Part shown: positions 27,553 through 53,369 of the stretch, one piece after another
Numbering within the stretch: the first letter of the stretch is position 1
How the letters are laid out: each line of letters begins with the position of its first letter
Assembly: GCF_010500615.1 (NCBI RefSeq)
Contig: NZ_JAAGNX010000001.1
Span: 945,531 to 1,009,530, forward strand
DNA from: Oceanipulchritudo coccoides
Lineage (GTDB): Bacteria > Verrucomicrobiota > Verrucomicrobiia > Opitutales > Oceanipulchritudinaceae
Length of the DNA stretch: 64,000 nt
Direction: 5' to 3'
The notes under the pieces: generated by a model
The model's database searches: none
What the model was told of the DNA's origin: nothing
The model's input: only the letters and a program-made list of their open reading frames with translations
Position numbers and translations under genes: made by a program

Positions 27553-27629
27553 GGGGATCGCACTTTGATAAGCTATCGTTCCAAATTTGTTCTGGTAGTT
27601 CTCTTTGGGCCTTCAGGGAGAACGAAAGC

Positions 27630-29984: not shown

Positions 29985-31772
29985 TCACCGCTTTGGGCTG
30001 CTCAGGTCGATCGTGAAGTCCAGCGCGTTATTATTCCGGTCTTGTTTGTGGCTCCGCCGGATTATTGATTGATTGGGTGCTGGTACCGTATCGATTTTGA
30101 AGTTATCCTTTTCTACGTAATCCCCATCAAACGACGACTCAGCCGTCCAGGAAAAGGCATCGACGATTCGACCTTCCTGATCTCTCAAGGCAATTTGTCC
30201 ATTATTCATGGAAATCCTGGGCAAAACTGCTGCGGTCGTTGTCTGATCAACAGTCAGCTGCTCTTTTTCTTTAAGAAAATCACGTGCGGCAGGGGTAGCG
30301 ACAAGGTAGTTTTCGCCCGCCGGGATGGAGCCAGAAAGCTTAACATAGAAATTATCTCGCTCAAAGCTATCATGCCGGGACCGGAGGCAGAGCCGCATTC
30401 CCTGTAGATCAACAGACTCACTTCCCGGGTTATGGAGTTCGATGTAGCCAGCTTGTTTGTTCCCGTTAACGGCCAGGCAAAGCTCTGTGATATTGATCTT
30501 CTTTACTGAAGGCAGTGATTTCGGACCCGAATAAGTGTTTTTGAATTCTTTCAGGATGTTCAACAGGTCAAAGCCGTACGGTTCAACATTCAAACCGACA
30601 GTGTGCGTCGCAGGCTCCCTTGTCGGTACCCCTGAGTCAGGTTCCAGTTGAGTGTCCTCGTGCCATTCATTCCAAGAGGTGACCATCATTAATTTGAAAT
30701 CCGGATTCATAAACTCTCCGGCCATGTCCAGATAATCTTCAAAAAGGCCATATTTGCGAGGATCATGGGCATTTCGCCGGTGGGGCAGGTAGTAATGGTT
30801 AACGTCCAAACGAACTCCCCGATCATTGAACCCCGGTAAGGCGTTGGGGACAAATTCAATTCCCAAACGATCAGAAATGGCTTTGAAGCGGGTGTTTTTC
30901 ATCCGGGCGTTCTGGAGTATCCAGACATCATCTGCATATCCTAAGGCGGTATCGGGAAGTGTCTGGATAGGGCTGGCATATTGAATATAAGGTGTAATGG
31001 CGTCAAAGCAGGCGATGCGGTCTTCCACAGGGGGCTTGATAGGATCCACTTCATCTCCAATAAGAAACAATTCCATACCGTGCTTTTCGCGGATGGTTGC
31101 GCGAAGTCGTTGGATAGCTCCCTTATAATCCCCCGCAAATTGATGCGTGACATAGATTATCAGCACGGGTTTATCATCAATCCGCAGATAGGATGGATGG
31201 CTGAAGTAGGTTTCTGCCAAATAATCAATGGAGTCGATAAACCTTTGTTCCAGTTCATTCCCCAACTCAAAGGTCAGGTCTCCTTTGACTCTATAAGGTA
31301 CGAGAAGCTTGTCCGCGACGGTTTCGTACAAAATTGTAAATTTGAAATCCTTTAAAGCGCTGGCTTTGGTGAAGCAATTTTTTGCTGTCTGATTGACCCA
31401 TGTATCCTCTCCCCAAAACGAAAGGGCAAAGAAATCAATGCCGGCATCTTTCGCCCATTCGATGTGCTGGTTGATTGTCGCTTCATCCCGTGAATCATAC
31501 TCGCCTAAAAGCGGGAGTTGTTGCGGTCGTAAATCACCGCGAAAATAGCCCTCATTCCAATGCCGCCCATCCGAGCCATACCATGGGTAATAGTAGGCCC
31601 CGATTTGGAGCTCATGCAAGCTGGCCGGTGTTGCGTTGTTAGAACAGAGAACCCCGGTCTTCTCCGCAATTGCCGGAGTGTTTCCCCATACGAGAAACAA
31701 GGCAAAAATTATAGTCGCCCAGCTATAAATCCGGTCTGTGCTTCCTGTTTTTTCAATATTTTTTGTATTCAA
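29985..31772 (-). CDS. GH99-like hydrolase with C-terminal lamin-tail domain
   Basis: A 595-aa exported protein. Residues about 45-420 form a GH99/WbsX-like TIM barrel: IGAYYYPWYGSDGRHWNEGY, HIEWAKDAGIDFFALSFWG, DKPVLIIYVTHQFAGD, and the late motif MMVTSWNEWHEDTQLEP carrying the usual glutamates. Residues about 430-595 are a lamin-tail domain (ITELCLAVNGNKQAGYIELH, NPGSESVDLQGM), a small beta-sandwich often used for surface attachment or binding. GH99-like enzymes are endo-acting on mannose-containing glycans, which would fit the nearby GH92 and GH38 genes. It is the last gene of a three-gene operon with the symporter and a beta-helix protein. A decayed copy of its 3' end lies at 23183-23445. 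Confidence 0.8.
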   Translation of the reverse strand: MNTKNIEKTGSTDRIYSWATIIFALFLVWGNTPAIAEKTGVLCSNNATPASLHELQIGAYYYPWYGSDGRHWNEGYFRGDLRPQQLPLLGEYDSRDEATINQHIEWAKDAGIDFFALSFWGEDTWVNQTAKNCFTKASALKDFKFTILYETVADKLLVPYRVKGDLTFELGNELEQRFIDSIDYLAETYFSHPSYLRIDDKPVLIIYVTHQFAGDYKGAIQRLRATIREKHGMELFLIGDEVDPIKPPVEDRIACFDAITPYIQYASPIQTLPDTALGYADDVWILQNARMKNTRFKAISDRLGIEFVPNALPGFNDRGVRLDVNHYYLPHRRNAHDPRKYGLFEDYLDMAGEFMNPDFKLMMVTSWNEWHEDTQLEPDSGVPTREPATHTVGLNVEPYGFDLLNILKEFKNTYSGPKSLPSVKKINITELCLAVNGNKQAGYIELHNPGSESVDLQGMRLCLRSRHDSFERDNFYVKLSGSIPAGENYLVATPAARDFLKEKEQLTVDQTTTAAVLPRISMNNGQIALRDQEGRIVDAFSWTAESSFDGDYVEKDNFKIDTVPAPNQSIIRRSHKQDRNNNALDFTIDLSSPKR

Positions 31773-33414: not shown

Positions 33415-35412
33415 TTAACGGTTATGAGAGGCGCGTAGATCTGGCTCGTTTTCCATGTCCCGGTCGGGTCTTTGATTTTTGTACCAGATGAAGTACATGC
33501 CCAGGCAGGCCACAACGAAGATGGGCAAGCTCCAGTACAATGAGGTGAAGCTGTGGATGATGATTTGCATGGGTATCAGGAAGAGCATGACCTGATAGAA
33601 AAAGGCAAACGGTACCGAAATAACATCCCGGGTATTTTCGGAGTCGATGTAACTGAGCTGTTCCTCAAGAAGATACTTCCGGACGGGCCCCCAGAATCCA
33701 AATGGTCGGGTCTTTTTGTAGAAGTGAACGAGGGTATCCATTTCAGTTGGCTTGGTGATGAGGCATCCGCCAATAGTCCCCGTGAAGGCGATGATCGCGA
33801 CGTAGAGAAACTTGCCCCAGTAGGGAAAATCCGGAAAGAAGATAGTTTGAGAAATGGCTGCAACAGCCCCAAAGGCCATTCCAAAGGCGACGCCCCAGCC
33901 GTTCATCCTCCACCAGTAAAGTCGAAGGAAATTCGGGACAAACAGGCCCGTCATCAAACTCATGAGGACCCAGTCCCAAACGTGGTTAATGCTGGAAAAA
34001 TTCAGCCCGGCTATAAAGCCGACAATTGCCACAGCAACGGTTGTAATCCAAGCAACTCTGATCAGTTCCTTGTCCCCCGCTTTCGGCCTCATCCAGCGTT
34101 GATAAATATCCTTCACGACAAATGAGGAAGCCGCATTCAGGGTTGAGTCGAAGGTGGACATGGTGGCCGCAAGGGCTGTCACAAGAATGACTCCAAGCAG
34201 TCCCGCTGGGACATAGCTCAGGATGACAGCTGGCAAAATGCGCTCTGGATCAGTGATTCCTTCATAGCCTACGAGGGGAAGCTTGGCCCGCCATTCCTCC
34301 CCGAGAACAGTTTCCAAGTTGCTGATGAGCGTGGGGTCGGCCTCATCCGGATGGGCGATCAACTGAGTCGTGGTCGAGTGCCAGCTTGTCTTGTCCATGT
34401 CCGGATAGTAAGCGCGGACTGTCTGAGCGGCCTCAGCAATGACGGTGCGGTCTTCAAAGGTATCATTGACCAGGAATAGCCCGAGCACAGCGAGCCCGAT
34501 CATCATGGGCCAGCGAATGGCAATCATCCCGCTAATGAGAAGGTTCAATTTGCCGACGTCCTTGTCAGAGCGCGAAGCGAAGTATTTGGGATCTGCTCCA
34601 CTAGCGAGGCCAAACACGGTTTGTTGTAGGAGAAAGAATCCCATAGCCAGCCCAAGAAAGCGGTAAACATCATATTCCGAGCCGTTGGCAGTCTGGGGAA
34701 AGGTGATTTCCATCTGTGGCAGTGATCCGGCCCAGTCGGACACCCCGTTCACCGAGTTTGCAAGCGCCGAAACCGATTCGATTCCATCAATCAGGGTAAA
34801 GGCAACAACACCAAGGACCAATGCTGAAACAAAAATGAGCAGGGATTGGATTACATCACTGATAACGACCCCGTAAAAGCCGGACATCATCGTGTAAACT
34901 ACGGCTATGGCTATCAGAACCCCCGCGCAGACCTCGGGTGGAAAGGGAAAGAACATCGAAAGAAACAAACCCGTTCCTTTCATCAAGTAAGCAATCAAAC
35001 CGATTACCGGAAGGATGGCCACGACAGCTGTCAAAAGGCGTGCGGCATCGGCATCGCGCCCTTGCCCAAAACGGAACTGCATCCATTCCGCACCTGTCAG
35101 TACTCCTGAGCGACGGTGCCATTTGCCAGTGAAGCAAAGCAGGAAAATCAGGATCAACACCGCATCCCCGCGGAATCCAATGAACAGCGCCTTCGGCCCG
35201 ATCATGAAAAGAAAGGATGTGATCACCATCGTGCCGGTCACATCGAACCAACTGGCCATCCCGGAACAGCCAAGAAAATACCAGGGAAGTTTGCGACCGC
35301 CGAGAAAGTATTCCTCCAGTCCGCCTGCTGCCTTCTTTGCCAGAAGGGCCCCCATCACAACGAGTATTAGTGAGTAGACAACGATGATGGTGTAATCAAG
35401 AGGTGTGAGCAT
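33415..35412 (-). CDS. Sodium:solute symporter (SSS family)
   Basis: A 665-aa inner-membrane Na+-coupled transporter. The N-terminal segment MLTPLDYTIIVVYSLILVVM is helix 1, followed by the SSS hallmark EEYFLGGRKLPWYFLGCSGM, and later DVIQSLLIFVSALVLGV and SYVPAGLLGVILVTALAATM with STFDSTLNAASSFVVKDIYQ, both strongly conserved around the sodium sites. Members take up sugars, myo-inositol or sialic acid. It heads an operon with a beta-helix protein and a GH99-like enzyme. An AAACGTTT site lies 77 bp upstream, shared with the divergent sulfatase pair. Confidence 0.9.
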   Translation of the reverse strand: MLTPLDYTIIVVYSLILVVMGALLAKKAAGGLEEYFLGGRKLPWYFLGCSGMASWFDVTGTMVITSFLFMIGPKALFIGFRGDAVLILIFLLCFTGKWHRRSGVLTGAEWMQFRFGQGRDADAARLLTAVVAILPVIGLIAYLMKGTGLFLSMFFPFPPEVCAGVLIAIAVVYTMMSGFYGVVISDVIQSLLIFVSALVLGVVAFTLIDGIESVSALANSVNGVSDWAGSLPQMEITFPQTANGSEYDVYRFLGLAMGFFLLQQTVFGLASGADPKYFASRSDKDVGKLNLLISGMIAIRWPMMIGLAVLGLFLVNDTFEDRTVIAEAAQTVRAYYPDMDKTSWHSTTTQLIAHPDEADPTLISNLETVLGEEWRAKLPLVGYEGITDPERILPAVILSYVPAGLLGVILVTALAATMSTFDSTLNAASSFVVKDIYQRWMRPKAGDKELIRVAWITTVAVAIVGFIAGLNFSSINHVWDWVLMSLMTGLFVPNFLRLYWWRMNGWGVAFGMAFGAVAAISQTIFFPDFPYWGKFLYVAIIAFTGTIGGCLITKPTEMDTLVHFYKKTRPFGFWGPVRKYLLEEQLSYIDSENTRDVISVPFAFFYQVMLFLIPMQIIIHSFTSLYWSLPIFVVACLGMYFIWYKNQRPDRDMENEPDLRASHNR

Positions 35413-39752: not shown

Positions 39753-42566
39753 TCACTTAAGCATGATCGTCACGATCTTGCCCTTTTCCAAGGTTACGGA
39801 GAGTTGATTGTTTTCAACCGGTAGCGTTGCCAAATCCACTTCGTTCAGGTTGGTCATCGTGGCCTGCTTGACTGGAAAGCCCAATCGAATGTTTGTGCTC
39901 TGACTGGTCGCCGTTGGATTGAAAATCCTGAGAATAATGGCTTCCTCGTCTTCCGCTTTCTTGAAGGTTGAGAGGATGATCGAGTCGTTATCAATCTCGT
40001 AAAGGGAAACAGAGTGGGGGAGGTCCCCGGCGGCATTTCTGGAAATCTGCATAACCGCGGGTCTGGCGTTGAGCCGGTCCGCCTCGGGATAGGCTTTCCC
40101 CTCAATCCATGACCCTTTGTGGGGACAGATGGAATATTCGAATTCAAGGGTTTGCAGGATCTGGCTTCCCAGTTGATCGGGGAATTCCGCGGAAACCCGG
40201 GATTCCGTACAGATCCGGTTTCTTACCGCGCGGAAAAGGGTCAGGGCAATGGTCCTTCGTTCATCGTCCAGAAGCTGGAATTCCGTCAGGCAGTTGTTGA
40301 CAATAGAGAGCCCCGACTGGTCGTCACTGACAGAGCAAAAGACCCCTTGTGGACGAAGCGCCATTTCCGGGTAGTGTTTGCCAGCCTGATCCACTTCGTG
40401 GACCATGTGGCGCCTGTCGACTGTGAAGTGACCCGCCGCATCGGAAAAGTCCGCTTTGATGTCTGAGGGAATCATGACACGCAAGCGATGATCTTTTGCC
40501 TTGTTTTCAACCTTGGTCTTGATGCGTAACTGCCGCGCTCCCTTGGTCAGTGAGAGCTTGGATACGATCTTCATATCGACAAGATCCTCACTCCGTTTGC
40601 CGTAACCCTGGATATTTATCTTCCCGTATTCTGCCCTGGAAGGAATGCGCATGATTTTTTCGATACAAATTGTTCCCGAAAGCGGCCCGTTGTCCTCCAT
40701 CCAGATCCTCGACTCAAACCCGCGACTGCTGATGGCCTGGTTTTGACAGGGGGGGTAGTATGCCCAATAGTCCCCTGTGTCACCCTCGTCCTCAAAGGCA
40801 TGCATCCCGGTGATGCTTCGCTCGTTTGACTTGTCGGTCAGGTCAAATGTGCCGTCCGGATTGACCTCAACTTTAAGATTCTCGTTCTCGAGGATGTGGG
40901 TCCCGGTCCCGATAAGTCCTCCTTTGGATTTCCGCATTGCCGGCCACCATTCTTCCTCCCGCCAGAAAGTTTTTTCGTGGACTACCCGGACAACCTTGTA
41001 ACCACCTGCAGGAATGTTTCCTGAATCAAGGTATACTTCATGGCGGTCCACAAGGAATGGCCATGGTCTTGCCTCAATATCGTGCACCGGCTGCTTGTGT
41101 TCGTCCCTGGAGATCATCTGGACTTCCAATGGTGTGCCATCGGCTTCTTCCGCGCCGATCGCCCAGACGTTTTCTTCCTGTGGGGTATCGACTGCCAGGC
41201 GGATGACTTCCCGGACAGGCCTTGGCTGGGGGTTGTGTATCAGAAGCAATTGGTCTTTCTCCCCAAATTCCGAGAGGTCCAGGCGTTTTATAAGGGCTGC
41301 AACGGTATCGTCATAAATTGTTTCCCCGATTTCCAACGCTTGATTCAATCTGTAGATATTGTCCTCAACAGTCTTGTCCTGAGTGACACCGTTGATGGAG
41401 TCGTGGGCGTGGGCCTTGAGAAGATACTCCCACCCTTTTTCAAGGAATTTTTCCGGGTATGAATGGCCATTCATGAACAAGCAGGCCGCAAGCGGCTCTG
41501 TCCGGCGGATCATGACGTTCTCGGCCTTTTTGTTCAGCTGCTTGATATGAATACGCGTGGCCAAGGCATTTGCGGATGCCCCGCACGGCTCCCCATCGCG
41601 GAGCTCCCCGTCGACAACGGGAACCTTGCTCCTGTCAATGCGTTCCTCAAGGCCCTTGAAGTACTCCTCAAGGGACCCCATCCTGAACTCAATATCTGGG
41701 TGGGCTTCATTACAGTCCCGCACCATCCGGGGCAGATGGGGGTTGGGGGTTGAAAAATCGCAACCACACATCAGGAGACGCCAGTCCTGGGCCATGGTCT
41801 TGTCCATGTTATCCCAGGTGCGCTGCGCCGCGGCCTTCACGTTTTCCTTGAAGTAGCCTTGCTCGTGATCAATCCGGAAGTAATCCGTGCGTGCCTGGTC
41901 TGCATCTGCACGATGATAGGCAAGGCCTGTCTCGCCCCACTTCCACGCATACACATTGTCGTCGTATTGATTATTGAGACGGACCGGAAAATGTAGGTAA
42001 AAGTATCCGTTTTGTCGACCAAAGTGCCCCAGCCGTGAGGCCAGAACCGTTGATCCGTCCGGGGCAGTCCAGAGGAATTCGCAATGTGGTGCCCGCTCTT
42101 CCGATACCTTTTTGGCCGCCACCGCGTACTTGATTCCCAGACTTTCGTATATCTGGGGAAACTGAGCGGTCTGTCCCCATCCGAATGTATGATAAGCAAT
42201 CGGGTTATATCCACCAAACTCATCCGCGTAGCGGATACCTTTCAAAAGGCTCCTCAGGAGGCATTCCCCCGAAACTGGAAAGAGGTCCGGCAGCGTATAC
42301 CAGGGCCCGATCCAAAGCCTGCCTGCCTTCACCTGCGCTTCGATCCGGCCACGGTTTTCCGGCCGGATTTCCAGGTAGTCCTGCAGGCAAACAGTTTGCC
42401 CGTCCAATAAAAATCCAGCATACCCTTCATCGGTCTCAAGAATCTCCAACAGCCAGTCCATGAACTCCAGAAGCAATGAGCGGTTTTTATAGATCGGATA
42501 CCGCCATTCGCGGTCCCAGTGGGTATGCCCGACGACGATCGCTGTTTGCTTGCTTTCCTTCTGCAT
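39753..42566 (-). CDS. GH38-family alpha-mannosidase-like protein lacking the usual nucleophile Asp
   Basis: A 937-aa cytoplasmic protein without signal peptide. GH38 features: zinc ligands in GHTHWDREW (H16, D18), FLLDGQTVCLQDYLEIRPEN, RLWIGPWYTLPD and the fourth zinc ligand H388 in AHDSINGVTQDKTVEDN. The third ligand and catalytic nucleophile of the family is the Asp of a PDxFGH-type motif; here the aligned segment is AYHTFGWGQTAQFPQI (124-139), with no Asp. Activity as a normal alpha-mannosidase is therefore doubtful, or the subfamily works differently. Start ATG 42566 has AAGGAG seven bases upstream; a longer in-frame start at 42605 would overlap the operator region. Confidence 0.83.
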   Translation of the reverse strand: MQKESKQTAIVVGHTHWDREWRYPIYKNRSLLLEFMDWLLEILETDEGYAGFLLDGQTVCLQDYLEIRPENRGRIEAQVKAGRLWIGPWYTLPDLFPVSGECLLRSLLKGIRYADEFGGYNPIAYHTFGWGQTAQFPQIYESLGIKYAVAAKKVSEERAPHCEFLWTAPDGSTVLASRLGHFGRQNGYFYLHFPVRLNNQYDDNVYAWKWGETGLAYHRADADQARTDYFRIDHEQGYFKENVKAAAQRTWDNMDKTMAQDWRLLMCGCDFSTPNPHLPRMVRDCNEAHPDIEFRMGSLEEYFKGLEERIDRSKVPVVDGELRDGEPCGASANALATRIHIKQLNKKAENVMIRRTEPLAACLFMNGHSYPEKFLEKGWEYLLKAHAHDSINGVTQDKTVEDNIYRLNQALEIGETIYDDTVAALIKRLDLSEFGEKDQLLLIHNPQPRPVREVIRLAVDTPQEENVWAIGAEEADGTPLEVQMISRDEHKQPVHDIEARPWPFLVDRHEVYLDSGNIPAGGYKVVRVVHEKTFWREEEWWPAMRKSKGGLIGTGTHILENENLKVEVNPDGTFDLTDKSNERSITGMHAFEDEGDTGDYWAYYPPCQNQAISSRGFESRIWMEDNGPLSGTICIEKIMRIPSRAEYGKINIQGYGKRSEDLVDMKIVSKLSLTKGARQLRIKTKVENKAKDHRLRVMIPSDIKADFSDAAGHFTVDRRHMVHEVDQAGKHYPEMALRPQGVFCSVSDDQSGLSIVNNCLTEFQLLDDERRTIALTLFRAVRNRICTESRVSAEFPDQLGSQILQTLEFEYSICPHKGSWIEGKAYPEADRLNARPAVMQISRNAAGDLPHSVSLYEIDNDSIILSTFKKAEDEEAIILRIFNPTATSQSTNIRLGFPVKQATMTNLNEVDLATLPVENNQLSVTLEKGKIVTIMLK

Positions 42567-42631: not shown

Positions 42632-43630
42632 ATGAACAAAGTGCAATATCCGAATTTAGGCGAGACAAATCCAGCGCTTGGGCTGCAGAGCCTTGAACGA
42701 ACATCGGACAATCGATTCTTTGTGGGTGAAGGAGGCGTGGGCGCCATTGGGGCGACTGGGGATGGCAAAGTTGAATTTGTCGGGTTCGAGGAACATACCC
42801 TTGCCCTGGTCAAATCGGCAATGGGATATCCAGCCTATTATCCTGTTGATGCTCTGGGAGAAGAGAGACCTTTAAAGGCGGTATTGATGGATCTCGACGG
42901 GACGACCGTGCACAGTGAATCGTTCTGGATCTGGATCATTGAGAGGAGTATCGGGAGTTTGCTTGGCAAGAAAAGCTTTCAGTTGGAAGAAGAGGATATT
43001 CCGTACGTTTCAGGCCACTCGGTTTCCGAGCACTTGCAGTATTGCATTGAAAAGTACTGTCCGGATAAGCTGCTCGAAACGGCGCGAGCCCATTACTTCA
43101 AACACACGCATCGGGAAATGCAGTTGATCCTCGAAGGCAAGGGCAGGGAGGGAGCTTTTGAACCATCACCGGGGATCAAGCCGTTTCTTGAGGAATTGAA
43201 AGCCATGGGCTTGAAAATCGGGCTGGTTACTTCCGGGCTATACGAAAAGGCCTATCCGGAGATACTCGATGCTTTCCGGACCCTTGGAATGGGGGATCCC
43301 GCAGATTTTTATGATGCCATCATCACGGCGGGCCATGCCCTCCGCAAGGGGCAGTCAGGAACGCTTGGGGAATTGTCTCCAAAGCCACATCCATGGTTGT
43401 ATGCGGAAACCTTCCGTGTGGGCCTTGGAATGGATTACCATGAACGGAATGCAGTTATCGGTATTGAAGACAGCGGGGCTGGGGTGGTCTCCATACGCCT
43501 GGCCGGAATGCAGGCCTGGGGGATTGGTGGCGGCAATATCGAGCAATCAGGAACCAAGGGGCTTTGCAGTGAGTTCTCGAATGATTTTGAAGGGCTTCTC
43601 AAACGGATACGCCTGCGGGCAGAGGCCTGA
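42632..43630 (+). CDS. HAD-superfamily phosphatase with unusual N-terminal extension
   Basis: A 332-aa cytoplasmic protein. Residues about 82-325 form a HAD subclass I domain: motif I LMDLDGTTVHSE (nucleophile first Asp), motif II LVTSG, the lysine in SPKPHPW and motif IV IGIEDSGAGV. This set is typical of beta-phosphoglucomutase-like sugar-phosphate phosphatases. The first 80 residues have no counterpart in standard HAD proteins and read as glycine-rich sequence followed by VEFVGFEEHTLALVKSAMGY. No good ribosome site precedes ATG 42632. The operator is 10 bp upstream. A role in processing sugar phosphates from the released monosaccharides is inferred. Confidence 0.75.
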   Translation: MNKVQYPNLGETNPALGLQSLERTSDNRFFVGEGGVGAIGATGDGKVEFVGFEEHTLALVKSAMGYPAYYPVDALGEERPLKAVLMDLDGTTVHSESFWIWIIERSIGSLLGKKSFQLEEEDIPYVSGHSVSEHLQYCIEKYCPDKLLETARAHYFKHTHREMQLILEGKGREGAFEPSPGIKPFLEELKAMGLKIGLVTSGLYEKAYPEILDAFRTLGMGDPADFYDAIITAGHALRKGQSGTLGELSPKPHPWLYAETFRVGLGMDYHERNAVIGIEDSGAGVVSIRLAGMQAWGIGGGNIEQSGTKGLCSEFSNDFEGLLKRIRLRAEA

Positions 43631-43668: not shown

Positions 43669-45165
43669 ATGAAGTTGAAATTTAACTACAGCTTCATGCT
43701 GATTGTTCTTCTTCTCCAGACAGGTATTCTTTCGGCAGACGACCAGCAGCCGAACATTGTCATGTTTGTTGTGGACGACATGTGTGACTGGATCGGGCCG
43801 ATGGGTCATGCGCAGGCCATTACGCCGAATATGGATCGGCTGGCAGATCAGGGAATCACTTTTCAGGACGCTCATACACCGGGGATTTTCTGTGCTCCAG
43901 CGAGGTCTGCGATATTTACGGGACGCCTGGCATCCAGGACAGGCTGCTACCGTACTCAGGTTTATTTTCAAACCCGGCCCGAGCTCAGGCCCCTTCAAGT
44001 ACAGTTGCAGGCGTGTGGGTACGCGACCTTCGGTGCCGGGAAGCTCTTCCATCATCCGGCCGGATATGTTGATTTGCGGGGCTGGGACAGCTTTTTTCTA
44101 CGGGATGAAAAGCTGAAGGAGAAAGGCTGGGACTTGCAAACCTGGACTGTGGATAGTCCCATCCTTCCAGACCCTTACCCAAGCAGCATTTTCAACCATG
44201 ATCGAAAGCCGGCGAACAAGTTTTTCATGGAATGGGGGAAGATCCTTGATGAAAATGAGGAGCTGATGGCCGACACCCTCCGGACCAACTGGGCCTGTGA
44301 TCTCGTCTCAAAAGAACACGGGAAGCCGTTCTTTGTCGCGGTGGGATTATACACGCCGCATTTCCCGAATTATGTGCCGGAAAAATATTTCGACCTATAT
44401 GATCCCGAGACGATCGAACACCCCCCTTACTTCGAATGGGATCTGGAGGATCTACCGCCTGCCATAAAGCGGGCCAAGACTGCGCGAAGCGCCATTCACA
44501 AGCGCTTGGAACAACTGGACGCCGTTGAAGACGCGATTCACGGCTATCTTGCCAGTATTTCCTATGCGGACGCCATGCTTGGACGCTTGCTTGATGCGAT
44601 TGCATCCGGGCCCAATGCAGACAACACCATCGTTGTTCTATGGAGTGATCATGGCTACCACCACGGGGAAAAATTTGACTGGGGAAAACACACTTTATGG
44701 GAGCGCACGACAAATGTACCTTTCATGTGGATGGGGCCCGGAATTGCCCGCGGAGAAAGCATAGAAACCACAGTGAGCTTGATCGATATCATGCCGACTC
44801 TTCTCGACTATTCCGGCGCTACTGCTGATGCCGGAGCTGACGGAATCTCCTTGCGTGAAGTTCTGGATGATCCAGGCAAGGCGGTTGAGCGCAATGTCGT
44901 CGTGCCTGGCATGCAACCCGGTGAATATGCCATTGTAAGCAACGACTGGCGCTATATCCACTATGCCGATGGCACAGAGGAACTCTACAACCTTGATCGT
45001 GACCCCAATGAGTGGTTCAACATGGCTGGCCTTGAGGGCTTGTCGGTGGTCATGGAAGAGCTGCGGAAATCCGCGCCAGTAACGTGGGCTGAACCCGGCC
45101 CGGAGAGAAACCGGTTAAGGTTGATTACCGAAGGCCGGGAATTTCACTGGATCACTAAAAAGTAG
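43669..45165 (+). CDS. Type I sulfatase, iduronate-2-sulfatase-like (CAPAR)
   Basis: A 498-aa exported sulfatase, signal peptide to about ILSAD. VMFVVDDMCDWIGPMG holds the metal aspartates D36/D37, and the modification site is C75 in GIFCAPARSAIFTG. The fourth position of the C-x-P-S-R motif is Ala here (CAPAR), a less common but tolerated variant. IVVLWSDHGYHHGEKFDWGK and HTLWERTTNVPFMW are the usual later motifs. It starts 38 bp after the HAD gene and is probably in the same unit. Confidence 0.88.
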   Translation: MKLKFNYSFMLIVLLLQTGILSADDQQPNIVMFVVDDMCDWIGPMGHAQAITPNMDRLADQGITFQDAHTPGIFCAPARSAIFTGRLASRTGCYRTQVYFQTRPELRPLQVQLQACGYATFGAGKLFHHPAGYVDLRGWDSFFLRDEKLKEKGWDLQTWTVDSPILPDPYPSSIFNHDRKPANKFFMEWGKILDENEELMADTLRTNWACDLVSKEHGKPFFVAVGLYTPHFPNYVPEKYFDLYDPETIEHPPYFEWDLEDLPPAIKRAKTARSAIHKRLEQLDAVEDAIHGYLASISYADAMLGRLLDAIASGPNADNTIVVLWSDHGYHHGEKFDWGKHTLWERTTNVPFMWMGPGIARGESIETTVSLIDIMPTLLDYSGATADAGADGISLREVLDDPGKAVERNVVVPGMQPGEYAIVSNDWRYIHYADGTEELYNLDRDPNEWFNMAGLEGLSVVMEELRKSAPVTWAEPGPERNRLRLITEGREFHWITKK

Positions 45166-45196: not shown

Positions 45197-46495
45197 TCAG
45201 AAATTTTCGGGCAGCCCGTCCGTTGCCGGGATGGTTCCACGGAGCATTCTACGGATTGCCCCGGTCAGCCTTAAATAGTAGTCGGGAGCATGCGGGCTGT
45301 AATCCAGAAATCGGGATTCCCCGACCGGTACGTCGTTTGATACCTTGAATATCTGGGTCCCTTCATCCATTTCATCAAACATGGCGATGTATAGGGTGTC
45401 CGCTCCACTGCGTTTGGCGGCAACGGCCTGGGCCCACAAGAACTTGCCCCCTTCGCGCGGGATACTGTCAAAAGCCGCATTCTTATGAACGTAGCGATTA
45501 GCCCAACTGAATCCAGGAAAGGCCAGAGGCATATATTTCACTCCTTGGGCCTCGCACCAATCCATGTCGGGTCGGACAATTTCATCCGTCCGCTTAAGGG
45601 CGGTTTCTGACCCGCCAAAACGACCGACCGACCAGGGAAGGATAACATCAGCACTGGCGATGACCTCATGCAATTTGGAATCGGTGGTGGCATCTTTTTC
45701 CAATGTCCTCCAAAAGGTCGGGATACCCAGAAGAATACTGCACCCGCCAAATTCCGGATCATTCTTGAGGAAATCAATCAGGTCTGCAACTTCCTCGAGG
45801 GTGTAATCCCTGCCCACGAATCCGACGCCCCAGATGGCCACCAGCGGCTTGCCTTCCATGTGCAAGTATGCGCGATCTTCACTCAGGCGAAATTGTTTCT
45901 GCAGGTCCTTCCAGTCCTGCTTGACGCGGTCCATCTCCCCATGCGGCATGCCGGAGAGGTCATACATAATAGAGTAAGCCCTACTGTGATGATTAGCACT
46001 TTGCTGAATAAATTCGAGTTTTCTGTTGTTTGAGGGGAGTAATAACTCCGCCTGATGATGAAATCCAACCACGTCCAAGGCAAATCGCTGCAGGAAAATT
46101 CCGTCGATGTTATATTGCCGCATCCACTTGAAATGGCGGTCGATGGTTGCCGGATGCTGCGTTGAAAACACGTGGGCCACACGGCCGTCAGCATGGCGAA
46201 AATCCGTGGCATATTTTTCCGAGGGCGTCAGCTCGCTTTCGTCGGGCCAGTAATCGATACCGACATGTCCCGGCTTGAACTGTTCATCATAGGTTTCGTA
46301 ATGTTCCCATCCCAGTCCGGATCCGTCAGTCGGTGTCCGGTACCATCCCTGATAACCGGCAAAGACCTTGCCCTCGAGTCCATCCGCCGCCGGGAGGAGG
46401 TCGACTTGGCTCTTGCAGGCGGCTCCGGAGGAAAGCGTCAAAAAGGTGACCGCTAGTACTATCAGGCGGAATTTGTAACTATTCATCGTCATCAT
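45197..46495 (-). CDS. GH71/99-like hydrolase
   Basis: A 432-aa exported protein of the group annotated as glycoside hydrolase family 71/99-like. The N-terminus is a signal peptide ending near SGAAC, with a possible but weak lipobox. The domain starts with GKVFAGYQGWYRTP and has HFKWMRQYNIDGIFLQRF, GKPLVAIWGVGFVGRDY, LPWSVGRFGG, MPLAFPGFSWANR and YIAMFDEMDEGTQIFK, the last carrying the likely catalytic acid. Start ATG 46495 is chosen because it follows the upstream stop (46497-46499) by one base, suggesting coupled translation; a second ATG at 46486 is possible. Paralogues lie at 50916-53369 and, broken, at 63562-64000. Confidence 0.8.
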   Translation of the reverse strand: MMTMNSYKFRLIVLAVTFLTLSSGAACKSQVDLLPAADGLEGKVFAGYQGWYRTPTDGSGLGWEHYETYDEQFKPGHVGIDYWPDESELTPSEKYATDFRHADGRVAHVFSTQHPATIDRHFKWMRQYNIDGIFLQRFALDVVGFHHQAELLLPSNNRKLEFIQQSANHHSRAYSIMYDLSGMPHGEMDRVKQDWKDLQKQFRLSEDRAYLHMEGKPLVAIWGVGFVGRDYTLEEVADLIDFLKNDPEFGGCSILLGIPTFWRTLEKDATTDSKLHEVIASADVILPWSVGRFGGSETALKRTDEIVRPDMDWCEAQGVKYMPLAFPGFSWANRYVHKNAAFDSIPREGGKFLWAQAVAAKRSGADTLYIAMFDEMDEGTQIFKVSNDVPVGESRFLDYSPHAPDYYLRLTGAIRRMLRGTIPATDGLPENF

Positions 46496-46496
46496 C

Positions 46497-47762
46497 TCAA
46501 GCTCTGACAGATTGCGCTTCAAGAGCGAGGGCGACCCAATCGCTCCAATTATTGTCGACAATCGACATCACTGGCTTGGCCTGCCAGTCACTATCATACA
46601 AGGAGAAATGCTGTGGCTTGAAATCTCCGGGAAGGACATCATTTGGCTTCGTTGATGGATCATCGAAATCGGGGGCAATATCCACAAACTCCCATCCAAA
46701 CCGGGTTCCGTTTTTCAAAGTATTGCTCAAGAGACCATCGACATCCTCTGGAAAATAGTCGGCCCCATTCAGTGTCATGTGCTCAGTAATTGCCCAGTCT
46801 TTCTTATGTTCGCGCATCACTTGGTGGACCCGGTCATAGGCTTTCTGGTTAGGCTTTCTGCGGATATTACACCAACTCCAATTCACCTGTATGATGTTGA
46901 TTTCAGTCAGGTTGCGGAGCAATTCGACCGGGTCGCCAAGACGCCGGTTCATAGTCCCATTTTCTGCGTCCAAATAGTCAGTGGCGATCCAGAGCGGGGC
47001 TCCGTTGGCGGCCTCCTTGTAGGCACGCGCATCCCCGTTGATCCAGCTGGCAAGGTTTTGCGCACGAAAGATGTTCCAGGCTTTTGAATCAATGAAGGCC
47101 TGGCTGGCCGGCAATTTATCCGGAAAGGGCAGGGGATTCAGCTCGGGATTGCGGGCCAACCACTTCTCATAGCTTTCCCTGGCTGCTCTGCTGTAGTCCA
47201 GATTTTGCGAGCCCATATATTGCGGCTCAACAGTTGTCTCAAAATAAAGGAAATTTTCCGCCCCCAGTTTCTCGACCAGATTCTTCATGTAAGCCCGGGA
47301 TGCGTGCAAGTACTCCGGTGAAAACAGGGAAGGAACAGCCGTGTTGTAGCCATACTCAGTATCCCGGACAGGGTTGCCTTCATGAGTGATCGCTTCTGTT
47401 TCGGGGTTGTTATCCCAGAATCCTTGAGGGATCTGCCCGCCGCCAACACCATAGGTTTCCACTGACAGCGATGCATACATGCCGTGAGCATCCACTGCTT
47501 TCAGCAAATCGTACAAAGGCTCAAGGGAGACTTCAATCCGTCCGTCACCCGAAGGGTTGAAATGGTGCCAGTAGCAATTGATCGCCAGATTCTTGTACCC
47601 TTTCGAGGCAATTACCGGTAGGTCCGCCATCAGCTTGCGGACTTCCGTCGGATCCCCGTAGTTTCTCAATGGCTTTCCTGTTTTCAGGAACTGATGCTCA
47701 TCATTTACATAGAGCCTTCCGTCACGGAGGCAATGGCCAGTTTTATACGGGTGAATGTGCAT
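46497..47762 (-). CDS. Cytoplasmic TIM-barrel glycosidase-like protein (clan GH-A type)
   Basis: A 421-aa protein without signal peptide, so probably cytoplasmic. It starts MHIHPYKTGHCLRDGRLYVN, then LPVIASKGYKNLAINCYWHH, a candidate acid/base in FETTVEPQYMGS and a candidate nucleophile in WAITEHMTLNGADY; the placement resembles clan GH-A barrels such as GH42 or GH5. Family membership is not settled. It lies between the LacI gene and the GH71/99-like gene on the same strand. A perfect 14-bp palindrome containing AAACGTTT sits 14 bp upstream of its start. Confidence 0.6.
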   Translation of the reverse strand: MHIHPYKTGHCLRDGRLYVNDEHQFLKTGKPLRNYGDPTEVRKLMADLPVIASKGYKNLAINCYWHHFNPSGDGRIEVSLEPLYDLLKAVDAHGMYASLSVETYGVGGGQIPQGFWDNNPETEAITHEGNPVRDTEYGYNTAVPSLFSPEYLHASRAYMKNLVEKLGAENFLYFETTVEPQYMGSQNLDYSRAARESYEKWLARNPELNPLPFPDKLPASQAFIDSKAWNIFRAQNLASWINGDARAYKEAANGAPLWIATDYLDAENGTMNRRLGDPVELLRNLTEINIIQVNWSWCNIRRKPNQKAYDRVHQVMREHKKDWAITEHMTLNGADYFPEDVDGLLSNTLKNGTRFGWEFVDIAPDFDDPSTKPNDVLPGDFKPQHFSLYDSDWQAKPVMSIVDNNWSDWVALALEAQSVRA

Positions 47763-47842: not shown

Positions 47843-48880
47843 TCAGGCTTTTGGCGGAGCTTCAGAACCGCGGTGAACCAGCTCGACCGGGAGCAGCACC
47901 GATGAGACGGACGTTTCCGGATTTTGAATACGGTTGATAATCGTTTCTGCACCAATCCGACCGAGGCCTGCCTTGTCTACTTTCACGGTGGAAATAGGCG
48001 GGCTGGAGCTTCGACTGTGCCGGTCGTCATTGTAGCCAAAAATGGTCAGGTCTCGGGGAATGCTGAATCCGTCGTCCTTCAATTTTTCAAGCAATTCGAC
48101 AGCAAGAGTATCATTAACGCAAATGACTGCTGTCGGAGGACGCTTTCCAAGGAGCAACGGTTTCAACCGCTCGTACCCATCATCCGTCCGATAGAAATCC
48201 CGCATACTGGGATTGAGTGTCTTGGGAAGATCATGCCGATTGACGGCTGCCAGAAAGCCGGCCTCACGCTGATCGGCGTTGGTATCCTCATGGGCGTGCG
48301 CCATGAAGACAATTCGGCGGTGCCCCAGATTGACGAGGTGGTCCACGATCTGCCCGCAGGCGGCGTATCCATCAGTCGTGATGTAATCAATTTTGATGCG
48401 TTCCCGATAGCTGTCCAAGTGTAAAAGGGGAAGTGAAAAACCAAGTAATTTCCTCACTTCAGACCGGGGGAAGCCGCCAAGGAGGATGATCCCGTCGACT
48501 TTTCCCTGTCGGATGAACCGGGGCGTATGCTGATCTGCCACCGATGAATCAAACCCGGAGAGCAACAGGTCATATCCGCGGCTTTCCATCGTCGCTTCCA
48601 GCGCTTCCATGATTTCCGCGTAGAAAATATTTCGGAAAATCGCCGAGGTGGACGGATAGAAGAGGAGTCCCACGGTCTCCATCGTCTGGCGCCGCAGGTT
48701 CCGGCCAGCTGAGTTTGGCACGTATCCGTGCTTCTCGCAGATTTCCAGCACTTTCTCACGGACTTCCTGGCTGATACGGCCCTTGTTATTGAGGGTGTTT
48801 GATACTGTCGCAATTGAACATCCCGCTAATTGCGCTATTTCTTTTATCGAGGTGATCCGTTTTATGGGCTGTTTACTCAT
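47843..48880 (-). CDS. LacI-family transcriptional regulator
   Basis: A 345-aa DNA-binding sugar-responsive repressor. Helix-turn-helix at about residues 10-32 (TSIKEIAQLAGCSIATVSNT), hinge to about residue 63 (GYVPNSAGRNLRR), then a periplasmic-binding-protein-like effector domain (ETVGLLFYPSTSAIFRNIFY, GIILLGG, VICVNDTLAVELLEK, GYNDD). The effector is not predictable. It is the only regulator of this type seen in the window, and eight exact AAACGTTT palindromes lie near it, so it is the best candidate to bind them. Divergent from the 49086 gene; the site at 49038 is 158 bp upstream and may also control it. Confidence 0.93.
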   Translation of the reverse strand: MSKQPIKRITSIKEIAQLAGCSIATVSNTLNNKGRISQEVREKVLEICEKHGYVPNSAGRNLRRQTMETVGLLFYPSTSAIFRNIFYAEIMEALEATMESRGYDLLLSGFDSSVADQHTPRFIRQGKVDGIILLGGFPRSEVRKLLGFSLPLLHLDSYRERIKIDYITTDGYAACGQIVDHLVNLGHRRIVFMAHAHEDTNADQREAGFLAAVNRHDLPKTLNPSMRDFYRTDDGYERLKPLLLGKRPPTAVICVNDTLAVELLEKLKDDGFSIPRDLTIFGYNDDRHSRSSSPPISTVKVDKAGLGRIGAETIINRIQNPETSVSSVLLPVELVHRGSEAPPKA

Positions 48881-50238: not shown

Positions 50239-50919
50239 ATGAAATCCCTGGTCGTATTTTTGTCTTTGAGCGTGTTTTTGAGTTCGAGTCAGGCTGCGAT
50301 CCCAGTCCTTTTTTCGTATGATGGAACAGAGGCTGTAAGGAACCGCTCAATCAAGCTCGATTTCTCGATCAACGATGAAGGTGTTGTTTCGCTTGACGCC
50401 TCCACACAGAGCCCGGACACGCATGCCAATGTAGCGGTGGACAAGTGGGATAATGAGAACATTGGCACGGTTGAGGACAAATCTTTGTTCGGTAAATCGT
50501 TCTCCTTGCAATCTTTTGGTGAAAATGAAAAAGGCGGCTCTCCTCCCTTGATACTGCGCCCGGAGGAAGGTGGTGTGCTTGGTGTCGGTGGTCACAATCC
50601 TGGACGCATTGACGGGACAGGCATCAAGACTGGCCCGAACAAGGAAAAGATGTCATGGGTTTTTTCTGGGGACGTGGAACTGGTCCTTATGGGCTTTTCC
50701 TGCGGCTTGGTCACAAACAACAGCGGTATCATTGTTGAAGATGCCGATAGTGACATGCGAACCGGACCTTTGAAAATAGGCACACCGGCCAAACAGGACA
50801 TTCTGCAAGGAACGCTTTCCCTTGTCGATGGTGAGAAATTGGTGTTTAAAGCTGATCCTGACCTGATGCAGGGGGCTGGTTTGGTTGGATTTGACTTCGA
50901 AATCAAAAGCCCCGAGTGA
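50239..50919 (+). CDS. Secreted protein with divergent copy of the unnamed domain
   Basis: A 226-aa exported protein, signal peptide ending near SSQAA. The body shows the domain pattern in a reduced form: IKLDFSINDEGVVSLDA, PGRIDGTGIKTGPNK, VELVLMGFSCGLVTNNSG and the closing QGAGLVGFDFEIKSP, matching the end motif of the neighbours. It starts 49 bp after the 49086 gene and its stop codon overlaps the GTG start of the GH71/99-like gene by four bases, so expression is coupled. No enzymatic motif seen; a carbohydrate-binding accessory is possible. Confidence 0.68.
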   Translation: MKSLVVFLSLSVFLSSSQAAIPVLFSYDGTEAVRNRSIKLDFSINDEGVVSLDASTQSPDTHANVAVDKWDNENIGTVEDKSLFGKSFSLQSFGENEKGGSPPLILRPEEGGVLGVGGHNPGRIDGTGIKTGPNKEKMSWVFSGDVELVLMGFSCGLVTNNSGIIVEDADSDMRTGPLKIGTPAKQDILQGTLSLVDGEKLVFKADPDLMQGAGLVGFDFEIKSPE

Positions 50920-53369
50920 GCAAATATCAACCCCCCCGTTTTGTGAATAAATTCAAGCTTCCCCTTTTTCTCCTTCCGGCGCTTCTTCCAGTTGCCTCAT
51001 ACGGAGCGACAGTTTCCCTCGTTCCTGATGATTACTCATTTGGGTCCTTCACTGTTGAAACTGTTAACGGTCAGGATGTTTGGGTGGCTACCAACGCCAA
51101 TTCCTACCTTTATTTTGATGTTCCCTCAAGTTTCTCCTTCGTTCCCGGCGAGCCGGTTTACGTCGAGATTGAGTACATCGATGATGCTACCGGCAGGTTG
51201 TTTGTGGAATATGATTCGGGATACGGCTCAGATCCCAGCGACAAAAATTACGATGCGGAGATCCACACCCGTTCAAGCCGGCTGGGGACCCTTGAATTTG
51301 TGAAGTCCTATCAAGTCTTTGAAAATCCGTTGTTCGCGAACCGGCAAGGCGGGGGGAATGACTTCCGTATGCGGCTGCTGAACTGGAGCGGGACGCCTCT
51401 CCGGATCGCTTCGGTCAAAATCAGCACCGAGATTTTCCCTGATGAGCAACTTCTGTATGCTAACTCAAAGCCTTGGTTACAGCCTTACAACAGCCCAGTT
51501 GTTGATCACGTGGATAACCTCAGCCTTAAAGGGAAGGTGCTCGCCGGTTACCAGGGCTGGTTCAATGCGCCAAATGACCTGAGAGACAAAGGCTGGAATC
51601 ATTGGGGTCGCACACGTGACGTGGATCCGTCTCCAACTGAGATTACAATCGACATGTGGCCATGGATGAATGACTACGACCCGGATTCGATCTATCCCGT
51701 TGGGCAGATGGACCTTGGGGACGGGCGGCCTGCCTATCTGTTTTCTTCGGCGGACCTCGATACGGTCCAGACACACTTCCGCTGGATGCGAGAGTATAAT
51801 ATAGACGGGGTTTATTTGCAGCGTTTTGTCTCACGGACAAATAGCGGATTTTATGGGGCGGAGGAATTCGTTCTTCATAACGTGCGGGAGGCCGCCAGGC
51901 TGGAAGGCCGGGTATGGGCTCTTGAATACGATATCAGCTCACTGGACACGGATCCGGACCCGCTTCTGGTCATGCAGAATGACTGGAACTGGCTGGTCAA
52001 CGAAGCGGGAATTCTTGATGATCCCCGCTATCTTCATGAAGATGGAAAACCGGTGTTGTTTATCTGGGGCTTTTCAACCAACGGGCGTGACTTTACGGTC
52101 GCGCAGGCTAACGAGATTGTTGATTGGTTTGCAGCCCAGAATCTTTATTTGATCGGTGGTGTTCCCAATAGCTGGGAGAGCAAAACGGACTGGTTTGGCC
52201 ACTATCAAAAGTATGACCAATTGCTTGCATGGCAGGAGTCCTCAGGTTCCGAATTGATTTCGGAAAAGGCGCAACTTGACAGTTGGGGAATGAAGATTCT
52301 CCCGCATGCCTGGCCCGGCTTCTCATGGACAAACCTCAAGAAGCTTTTGCCGGGGCAACAGTTTACTCCGCGCAACGGCGGGCAGTTCTATTGGGACCGG
52401 ATCAAGAACGCCATTAACACCGGAGCGGACCAGATATTCCTCGGTATGTTCGACGAGTATGACGAGGGCACGGCCATCATGCCTATGTCGGATAATCACC
52501 CTGATCCACATACCGCGTGGGGTAGCTACATTGACAACGAGGGTAGGGATCCCTTTTGGTATCTCCGCCTGAGCGGCGCTGCCAAGGAGATGCTGACGGG
52601 GGTCAGGCCCTTGAGCAATTCCCTCCCTCTCGAATCCGCGATTTCTCCAGCTGGTTATATGGGCGCTGATGCCACCGCTTTTCTTGGCGCGGTTAATGAC
52701 GAGACGAACCTCTTTCTCGCGGAGCCTTTCGATGGCCTGACTTTCAGCGCCACCTACGGCGGACAGGAATGCCGGCACAATGAGCTCGACCCCAATGCAA
52801 CGACCTATATCTATTTTGATGTCGATGATGCTTTCGTCCCGGGAATCCCTGGCGAACAGACGGTCATGATCGAGGTTGAGGTCTACGTAACCGAGGCCAA
52901 TACCTCTGTCCGGTTACAATATGACAGCAACGACCCGGATTATGCCCTCAACCCCAATTACAAGTTGGCTCCCGACCCGATAGCCTTTCCCAAACCAAAT
53001 GTCTGGACCACCGTTCGGTGGTTCATCGACGATGCGGCTTTTGAGAACAGCCAAAATGGACCAGCTGATTTTCGCCTCAATATTACAAAGGGCAAACTCG
53101 CTGCGGTCAGGAGGGCCAGCGTCTTCCTTCCCAATAACTCAACAGGGTCTATCGATCCCTCCATTCGCTTGAACATCCAGAATGGTCAGGTAGTTTGGTC
53201 TGATCGGATTGATGCGGTCGGTTGGCGCCTTTCCAAGTCCCCTGATTTAAGCCCCGGGAGCTGGCTTTCAGTTCCTGACATCGATATCTCTTTTCTCGAT
53301 GGGGATATTTTCTATGATTTCGATCTGCCCAGCGGGTCAGAATTCTTCAGGCTGGAATCGACAGACTGA
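50916..53369 (+). CDS. GH71/99-like hydrolase flanked by two related beta domains (GTG start)
   Basis: An 817-aa exported protein. Start GTG 50916 overlaps the previous stop (GTGA); another GTG at 50943 would also give a signal peptide. Residues about 35-190 and 600-760 are two related beta-domains (each has YLYFDV or YIYFDV, a SYQ- or F-anchored 'VFENPLFANRQGGGNDFRMRL' / 'FENSQNGPADFRLNI' element and SVFLP-type end), probably carbohydrate-binding. Between them lies the GH71/99-like barrel: GKVLAGYQGWFNAP, HFRWMREYNIDGVYLQRF, GKPVLFIWGFSTNGRD, HAWPGFSWTNL and FLGMFDEYDEGTAI. The last 45 residues look like a secretion or anchoring tail. Confidence 0.78.
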   Translation: MSKYQPPRFVNKFKLPLFLLPALLPVASYGATVSLVPDDYSFGSFTVETVNGQDVWVATNANSYLYFDVPSSFSFVPGEPVYVEIEYIDDATGRLFVEYDSGYGSDPSDKNYDAEIHTRSSRLGTLEFVKSYQVFENPLFANRQGGGNDFRMRLLNWSGTPLRIASVKISTEIFPDEQLLYANSKPWLQPYNSPVVDHVDNLSLKGKVLAGYQGWFNAPNDLRDKGWNHWGRTRDVDPSPTEITIDMWPWMNDYDPDSIYPVGQMDLGDGRPAYLFSSADLDTVQTHFRWMREYNIDGVYLQRFVSRTNSGFYGAEEFVLHNVREAARLEGRVWALEYDISSLDTDPDPLLVMQNDWNWLVNEAGILDDPRYLHEDGKPVLFIWGFSTNGRDFTVAQANEIVDWFAAQNLYLIGGVPNSWESKTDWFGHYQKYDQLLAWQESSGSELISEKAQLDSWGMKILPHAWPGFSWTNLKKLLPGQQFTPRNGGQFYWDRIKNAINTGADQIFLGMFDEYDEGTAIMPMSDNHPDPHTAWGSYIDNEGRDPFWYLRLSGAAKEMLTGVRPLSNSLPLESAISPAGYMGADATAFLGAVNDETNLFLAEPFDGLTFSATYGGQECRHNELDPNATTYIYFDVDDAFVPGIPGEQTVMIEVEVYVTEANTSVRLQYDSNDPDYALNPNYKLAPDPIAFPKPNVWTTVRWFIDDAAFENSQNGPADFRLNITKGKLAAVRRASVFLPNNSTGSIDPSIRLNIQNGQVVWSDRIDAVGWRLSKSPDLSPGSWLSVPDIDISFLDGDIFYDFDLPSGSEFFRLESTD

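Follow-up and report, generated by a model that had tools for sequence, protein, structure and literature searches.

A phylum-spanning clade of GH38-family proteins that lack the catalytic nucleophile is linked to a β-phosphoglucomutase-like HAD enzyme and may comprise inverting α-mannoside phosphorylases

A GH38-family protein of 937 aa, encoded at 39753..42566 (−) in a 64,000-nucleotide stretch of the Oceanipulchritudo coccoides genome (hereafter the window), was found to belong to a clade from which the nucleophile aspartate of GH38 has been lost. The gene is physically and phylogenetically linked to that of a HAD enzyme related to β-phosphoglucomutase. This clade represents neither decay nor an isolated oddity. 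Another mechanism, namely phosphorolysis, is suggested by the lost nucleophile, the gained arginine and the strict association with a phosphosugar HAD enzyme. We hence propose, with a probability of roughly two in three (0.68), that the window protein is an inverting α-mannoside phosphorylase feeding β-D-mannose 1-phosphate (β-Man-1-P) to the HAD enzyme, which would act as a mutase.

The open reading frame starts at GTG 42605 or ATG 42566 and ends with a stop at 39753; residue numbers are counted from ATG 42566, and all sites described for this protein lie on the (−) strand. The GH38N, middle, C and C2 domains all scored above the Pfam cut-off, and this protein gave the single GH38N match in the 3.52-Mb genome. 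No signal peptide was obvious by eye in either this protein or the HAD enzyme. The AlphaFold model (mean pLDDT of 93.2) matched bacterial GH38 structures over its full length, giving Z 42.9 with 3lvt (803 residues, rmsd 2.6) and Z 39.2 with 2wyh. The model, structure prediction being one of the checks that a sequence-only reading of this DNA had recommended, allows us to assign a full-length GH38 fold with confidence. That reading had also described the protein as full-length, intact and not simply decayed, which agrees with the open frame, the complete set of GH38 domains and a motif common to its relatives. The closest relative read (72% identity) carries the identical motif, which argues against sequencing error or fresh decay; both were rejected, as the same motif occurs in relatives of 69–73% identity.

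Excerpts of the SpGH38 report (PMC2815779) give His13, Asp15, Asp125 and His351 as the zinc ligands, Asp125 as the nucleophile and Asp232 as the acid/base; Tyr192 forms a hydrogen bond with Asp125, and Arg149 is thought to aid the ionisation of Asp125. In the window protein, the canonical motif GYxPDxFGHxxQxPQI is replaced by AYHTFGWGQTAQFPQI at residues 124–139 (42150..42197), as located from the open reading frame and alignments. F128 (42183..42185) occupies the column of the aspartate that serves as nucleophile and zinc ligand, that is, Asp125 of SpGH38. It was aligned by MAFFT with Asp in 18/18 Asp-bearing GH38s of the same phylum, and profile–profile alignments gave the same register at this motif. 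No alignment contained a replacement Asp within the motif, so a hidden Asp elsewhere in it was rejected; the sole Asp near by, D114, belongs to another element. The initial suggestion of Phe at the nucleophile position with no neighboring Asp was thus borne out. The other three zinc ligands that it had listed, H16 (42519..42521), D18 (42513..42515) and H388 (41403..41405), were correctly numbered from the ATG and aligned as retained in 105/105 clade members, and D270 (41757..41759), in the column of the GH38 acid/base, was present in 103/105.

Several positions distinguish the clade from Asp-bearing GH38s. Q132 (42171..42173) is Gln in 113 of 114 clade proteins and mostly His in the Asp-bearing GH38s; the patterns used to collect the named loci include the GQ motif, so that Q132 is biased by selection there, while the profile searches are free of this bias. 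K152 (42111..42113), in the column of SpGH38 Arg149, is basic in 114/114 (Lys 98, Arg 16). R184 (42015..42017) is Arg in 114/114, N186 (42009..42011) is present in 101/105, and the R184-x-N element is followed by a clade insertion at about residues 187–236 (41859..42008), which in the MAFFT alignment was mostly missing from an initial set of four canonical relatives. R184 was placed opposite Tyr by MAFFT, by spacing judged by eye, and by profile–profile alignment against seven Asp-bearing sequences. One Asp-bearing protein (L060) ties this Tyr column to Y192 of SpGH38, the Tyr bonded to the nucleophile, with residues counted from the alignment; when the profile was aligned with L060 alone, a gap appeared opposite R184 and the Tyr match was lost. 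Among 41 Asp-bearing GH38s of the phylum, consisting of 40 fetched and one that came along (L198), 29 carry Tyr at position 184, 10 show a gap and the other two have Asn and Ala; the Asp-bearing protein in L068 lies outside these 41, and the residue of G496 lies outside this reading. R184 hence likely occupies the Tyr column. The invariant R184 and the invariantly basic residue 152 were both aligned beside the nucleophile column, with one alignment disagreeing on R184.

The nucleophile column of the 114 clade proteins, a set in which some loci are counted twice (e.g. L065 and L188), contained Phe in 99, Ser in 6, Cys in 5, Thr in 3, Asn in 1 and Asp in none. Its members were read from Verrucomicrobiota, Bacillota, Planctomycetota, Spirochaetota and further phyla. 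When one genome per species was scanned, at least 594 stretches matched the pattern, of which at least 532 encode a relative, in many phyla; the named loci are the best 80 of these at least 532 relatives, and all 80 hold an Asp-less protein. Profile searches also detected Asp-less GH38 proteins throughout the window's phylum. Thirty loci from a Bacillota order contributed 26 clade proteins in which the nucleophile column could be read; each had Phe or Ser there together with Arg184, and the remainder comprised one fragment unreadable at this column and three Asp-bearing proteins. In an unrooted tree of 94 rows, constructed with the motif and insertion left out, a single change separated Asp from non-Asp proteins, on a weakly supported branch (SH-aLRT 25) that lies beside a long row. 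The idea that these proteins form a subfamily accordingly held up, on the basis of 114/114 proteins without Asp and with R184 and of their position on one side of that branch. Two nucleophile-less GH38 genes were observed adjacent to each other in L120 (440–3337 and 3333–6143).

A profile search found the GH38-like gene in none of the 16 other genomes of the window's genus and family (G001–G016), and members of the order carry copies about 71–72% identical to the window protein. This absence indicates a patchy distribution, and the gene may have come by transfer. The viral contig scan gave no relative of the protein, and the plasmid records contained 19 with a match, all below 60% identity (32% at best), under the names mngB and GH38.

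The HAD gene (42632..43630, +) encodes 332 aa and diverges from the GH38-like gene with 65 bp between them; its product is a predicted β-phosphomannomutase. Clustering of the neighbor genes gave one HAD family of about 330 aa in 41 of 78 named loci, drawn from the best 80 of at least 532 relatives. Its members are closely similar even between phyla: 35/38 are 54–76% identical to the window copy, and the other three are 24–27% identical. The DxD, Ser/Thr, Lys and Glu-Asp motifs of β-phosphoglucomutase are all present, and the catalytic residues D87, D89, T200, S201, K251, E279 and D280 are kept in 39 to 41 of 41 sequences. The curated β-phosphoglucomutase model TIGR01990 gave 28.3 bits, far under its cut-off of 189.4. 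The predicted structure adopted a C1-capped HAD fold (Z 20.0 to 8q1d), for which β-phosphoglucomutases and phosphatases tied as structural matches (Z 19–21); the modeled fold gives no choice between mutase and phosphatase. Another HAD subtype, distinguished by MDMDGTTTTTE and by large inserts, adjoins GH38 in L140, L141 and L142, and in G411 is located on a separate contig (G411:C10) from GH38.

With an HMM profile, 45 of the 80 named loci (the best 80 of at least 532) were seen to carry the HAD gene in the stretch fetched, within 200 bp in 42. Within the phylum, it accompanied 11 of 32 nucleophile-less loci, a set that omits the window itself and the fragments in G242, G207 and G578:C353, versus 0/41 Asp-bearing loci (Fisher p 3.6e-5). 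The clade was present in 21 and the HAD enzyme in 16 of 387 phylum genomes; 16/16 HAD genomes hold the clade, and none of the 36 genomes in which every GH38 match lies outside the clade has the HAD gene (p 2.3e-24), the nucleophile Asp having been read in 35 of these 36. Similarly, 95 genomes of the Bacillota order contained the HAD enzyme in 24, the clade in 22 and both in 21 (p 7e-17); in three of the four genomes that break the pairing, the gene sits at the edge of a contig, and G629 is a real exception. In 21 genomes without HAD at the locus, a match was present elsewhere in 15, of which 12 were strong (>450 bits) and three weak. Among the phylum genomes, the HAD enzyme was missing from the subgroup with Cys at the nucleophile column (G358, G503, G549) and from G420 and G458. 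The gene preceding GH38 in the Cys subgroup (2223–3215 in L207 and 3107–4090 in L208) starts like carbamate kinase by eye, and is possibly another partner.

The surroundings form a dense glycan-degradation region containing two GH92, GH2, GH115, a GH99-like gene and several sulfatases (19662–21989, 24997–29924, 29985–31772, 50916–53369). The GH99-like gene (45197..46561, −), assigned by domain match to the endo-α-mannosidase family, is a possible substrate source; a sulfatase (43669..45165, +) adjoins the HAD gene. The GH92 genes, the GH99-like gene and the sulfatases suggest that the outer substrate here may be a sulfated α-mannan. A sodium:solute symporter (33415..35412, −) is a possible importer, and a LacI-type regulator is encoded at 47843..48880 (−). 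Where importers were read beside GH38, they are of the ABC or SSF type. Mannose-6-phosphate isomerase of class I occurs in 8 of the 80 named loci (the best 80 of at least 532), the scanned representative giving 158.7 bits against a cut-off of 116.2, and it was found in 0/40 control loci and 0/32 nucleophile-less loci of the phylum. A PfkB sugar kinase was located near nucleophile-less GH38 in 13 of the same best 80 loci (e.g. L064, L072, L091), nearly always where HAD is not near. PfkB, UroD-like methyltransferase, AraC and GH141 neighbors were set aside; PfkB and UroD are each also near 3/40 Asp-bearing GH38s, and were hence unused as evidence.

These features can be assembled into a pathway, which is proposed from the lost nucleophile with retained acid/base, the second basic residue, the lack of an obvious signal peptide, the importers, the β-phosphoglucomutase-like partner and the isomerase in some loci. 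A retaining GH38 hydrolase would have become an inverting glycoside phosphorylase with its fold kept. An α-mannoside would be imported into the cell by the nearby sugar importers and its sugar held by the zinc on H16, D18 and H388, while Asp270 would protonate the leaving group, both as in GH38. R184 and K152 may bind inorganic phosphate, possibly together with the zinc position that the missing ligand leaves vacant; in place of the lost nucleophile, this phosphate would attack C1 from the β face, converting α-mannoside and phosphate into β-Man-1-P. The adjacent HAD enzyme would convert this product into mannose 6-phosphate, which mannose-6-phosphate isomerase would turn into fructose 6-phosphate. 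Azide gives chemical rescue of nucleophile mutants, and phosphate would do likewise naturally in the nucleophile-less GH38. According to excerpts of a 2022 review (PMC8950772), an inverting phosphorylase requires only a proton donor and no second catalytic carboxylate; as judged from the alignments, the clade has such a single carboxylate (D270) and no second. Several results weigh against the proposal: the low TIGR01990 score and phosphatase-like fold matches of the HAD enzyme, its absence from the Cys subgroup and from G420 and G458, the gaps opposite R184 in some alignments, and the finding of the isomerase in named loci but in none of the 32 phylum loci.

The alternative that survives best, an unlikely one, is that the clade still hydrolyses α-mannosides by a replaced mechanism, with neighboring-group help from O2 or a zinc-bound water, and that the HAD enzyme performs another step. 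The retained acid/base and three zinc ligands fit this, as does the GH99-like gene in the same region, GH99 being a family that uses a 1,2-anhydro mechanism; however, it explains neither the invariant Arg in place of Tyr nor why a phosphosugar HAD enzyme accompanies this clade and not the Asp-bearing GH38s. Next, and also improbable, is a phosphorylase whose sugar is not mannose, or one acting as a synthase in the cell. Variation among the subgroups, both at the motif (F, S, C, T) and in neighboring genes such as the PfkB kinase in 13 of the best 80 loci, would fit this; the isomerase in eight loci, the two GH92 and GH99-like genes of the window and the importers speak instead for breakdown of mannosides, at least in the subgroup to which the window protein belongs. 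It is more doubtful still that the substrate is phosphorylated or acidic, its phosphate or carboxylate being bound by R184 and K152, with the HAD enzyme acting as product phosphatase in a mannosylglycerate-like path. C1-capped HADs are often phosphatases, and the best NCBIfam match, the mannosylglycerate hydrolase MngB (NF007331), points the same way with 417 bits against a cut-off of 1138 over residues 257–949 of a 950-aa reading; ABC and SSF importers, though, leave their cargo unphosphorylated, and the missing nucleophile is left unexplained. A non-catalytic or regulatory pseudo-enzyme, e.g. a sugar sensor, would agree with the loss of Asp from 114/114 proteins but is very improbable in view of near-invariant zinc ligands and acid/base across several phyla, new invariant residues and the linkage to a sugar-phosphate enzyme.

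Beyond the window protein, we regard the odds as somewhat better than even that the clade is a new family of inverting α-mannoside phosphorylases, zinc-dependent, spread across phyla and derived from a retaining glycosidase through loss of its nucleophile, and that β-D-mannose 1-phosphate is a bacterial intermediate so far unrecognised, served by a HAD β-phosphomannomutase of its own. In excerpts of the 2022 review, GH38 is absent from the CAZy families with phosphorylases, and the mannoside phosphorylases convert β-mannosides into α-Man-1-P (PMC8950772). No GH38 phosphorylase, α-mannoside phosphorylase or β-phosphomannomutase was found in the open-licence papers searched, preprints excluded. 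If the proposal is true, α-mannoside phosphorolysis would be a new activity; it would spare energy when bacteria of the gut, the rumen, sediments and the sea degrade mannan, and would provide a reversible catalyst for α-mannoside synthesis. Hundreds of genes called α-mannosidase may then be misnamed (at least 532 relatives found, the best 80 read), and loss of one residue would be a route from retaining hydrolase to inverting phosphorylase.

The fold and domain order of the window protein are those of the GH38 α-mannosidases, represented by SpGH38 (2wyh), the Enterococcus faecalis enzyme (3lvt/5kbp) and Drosophila GMII, with which it also has in common the three zinc ligands, the acid/base Asp and an Asp after the last His ligand. 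In contrast to these enzymes, the clade has its nucleophile Asp replaced, the partner Tyr probably changed to Arg and FGH changed to (W/F)GQ, and adds an insertion of about 50 residues after the Arg and the HAD partner gene. MngB is an ordinary retaining GH38, and its model, though the best NCBIfam match, was far under its cut-off (417 vs 1138 bits). The GH130 β-mannoside phosphorylases follow the same logic as that proposed here, as they keep the proton donor, lack a second carboxylate, which is present in GH130 hydrolases, and use basic residues for phosphate, according to excerpts of two articles (PMC8950772, PMC4599007). They differ in having a five-bladed propeller that is not homologous to GH38 and in converting β-mannosides to α-Man-1-P. 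The GH65 phosphorylases have an (α/α)6 fold and pair with β-phosphoglucomutase, a HAD mutase giving the 6-phosphate. The same pathway logic, from α-glycoside to β-sugar 1-phosphate, is described for the GH65 maltose/trehalose phosphorylases in the review excerpts (PMC8950772). That system differs in acting on glucosides and in its short β-phosphoglucomutase of about 220 aa, as compared with about 330 aa for the HAD enzyme described here.
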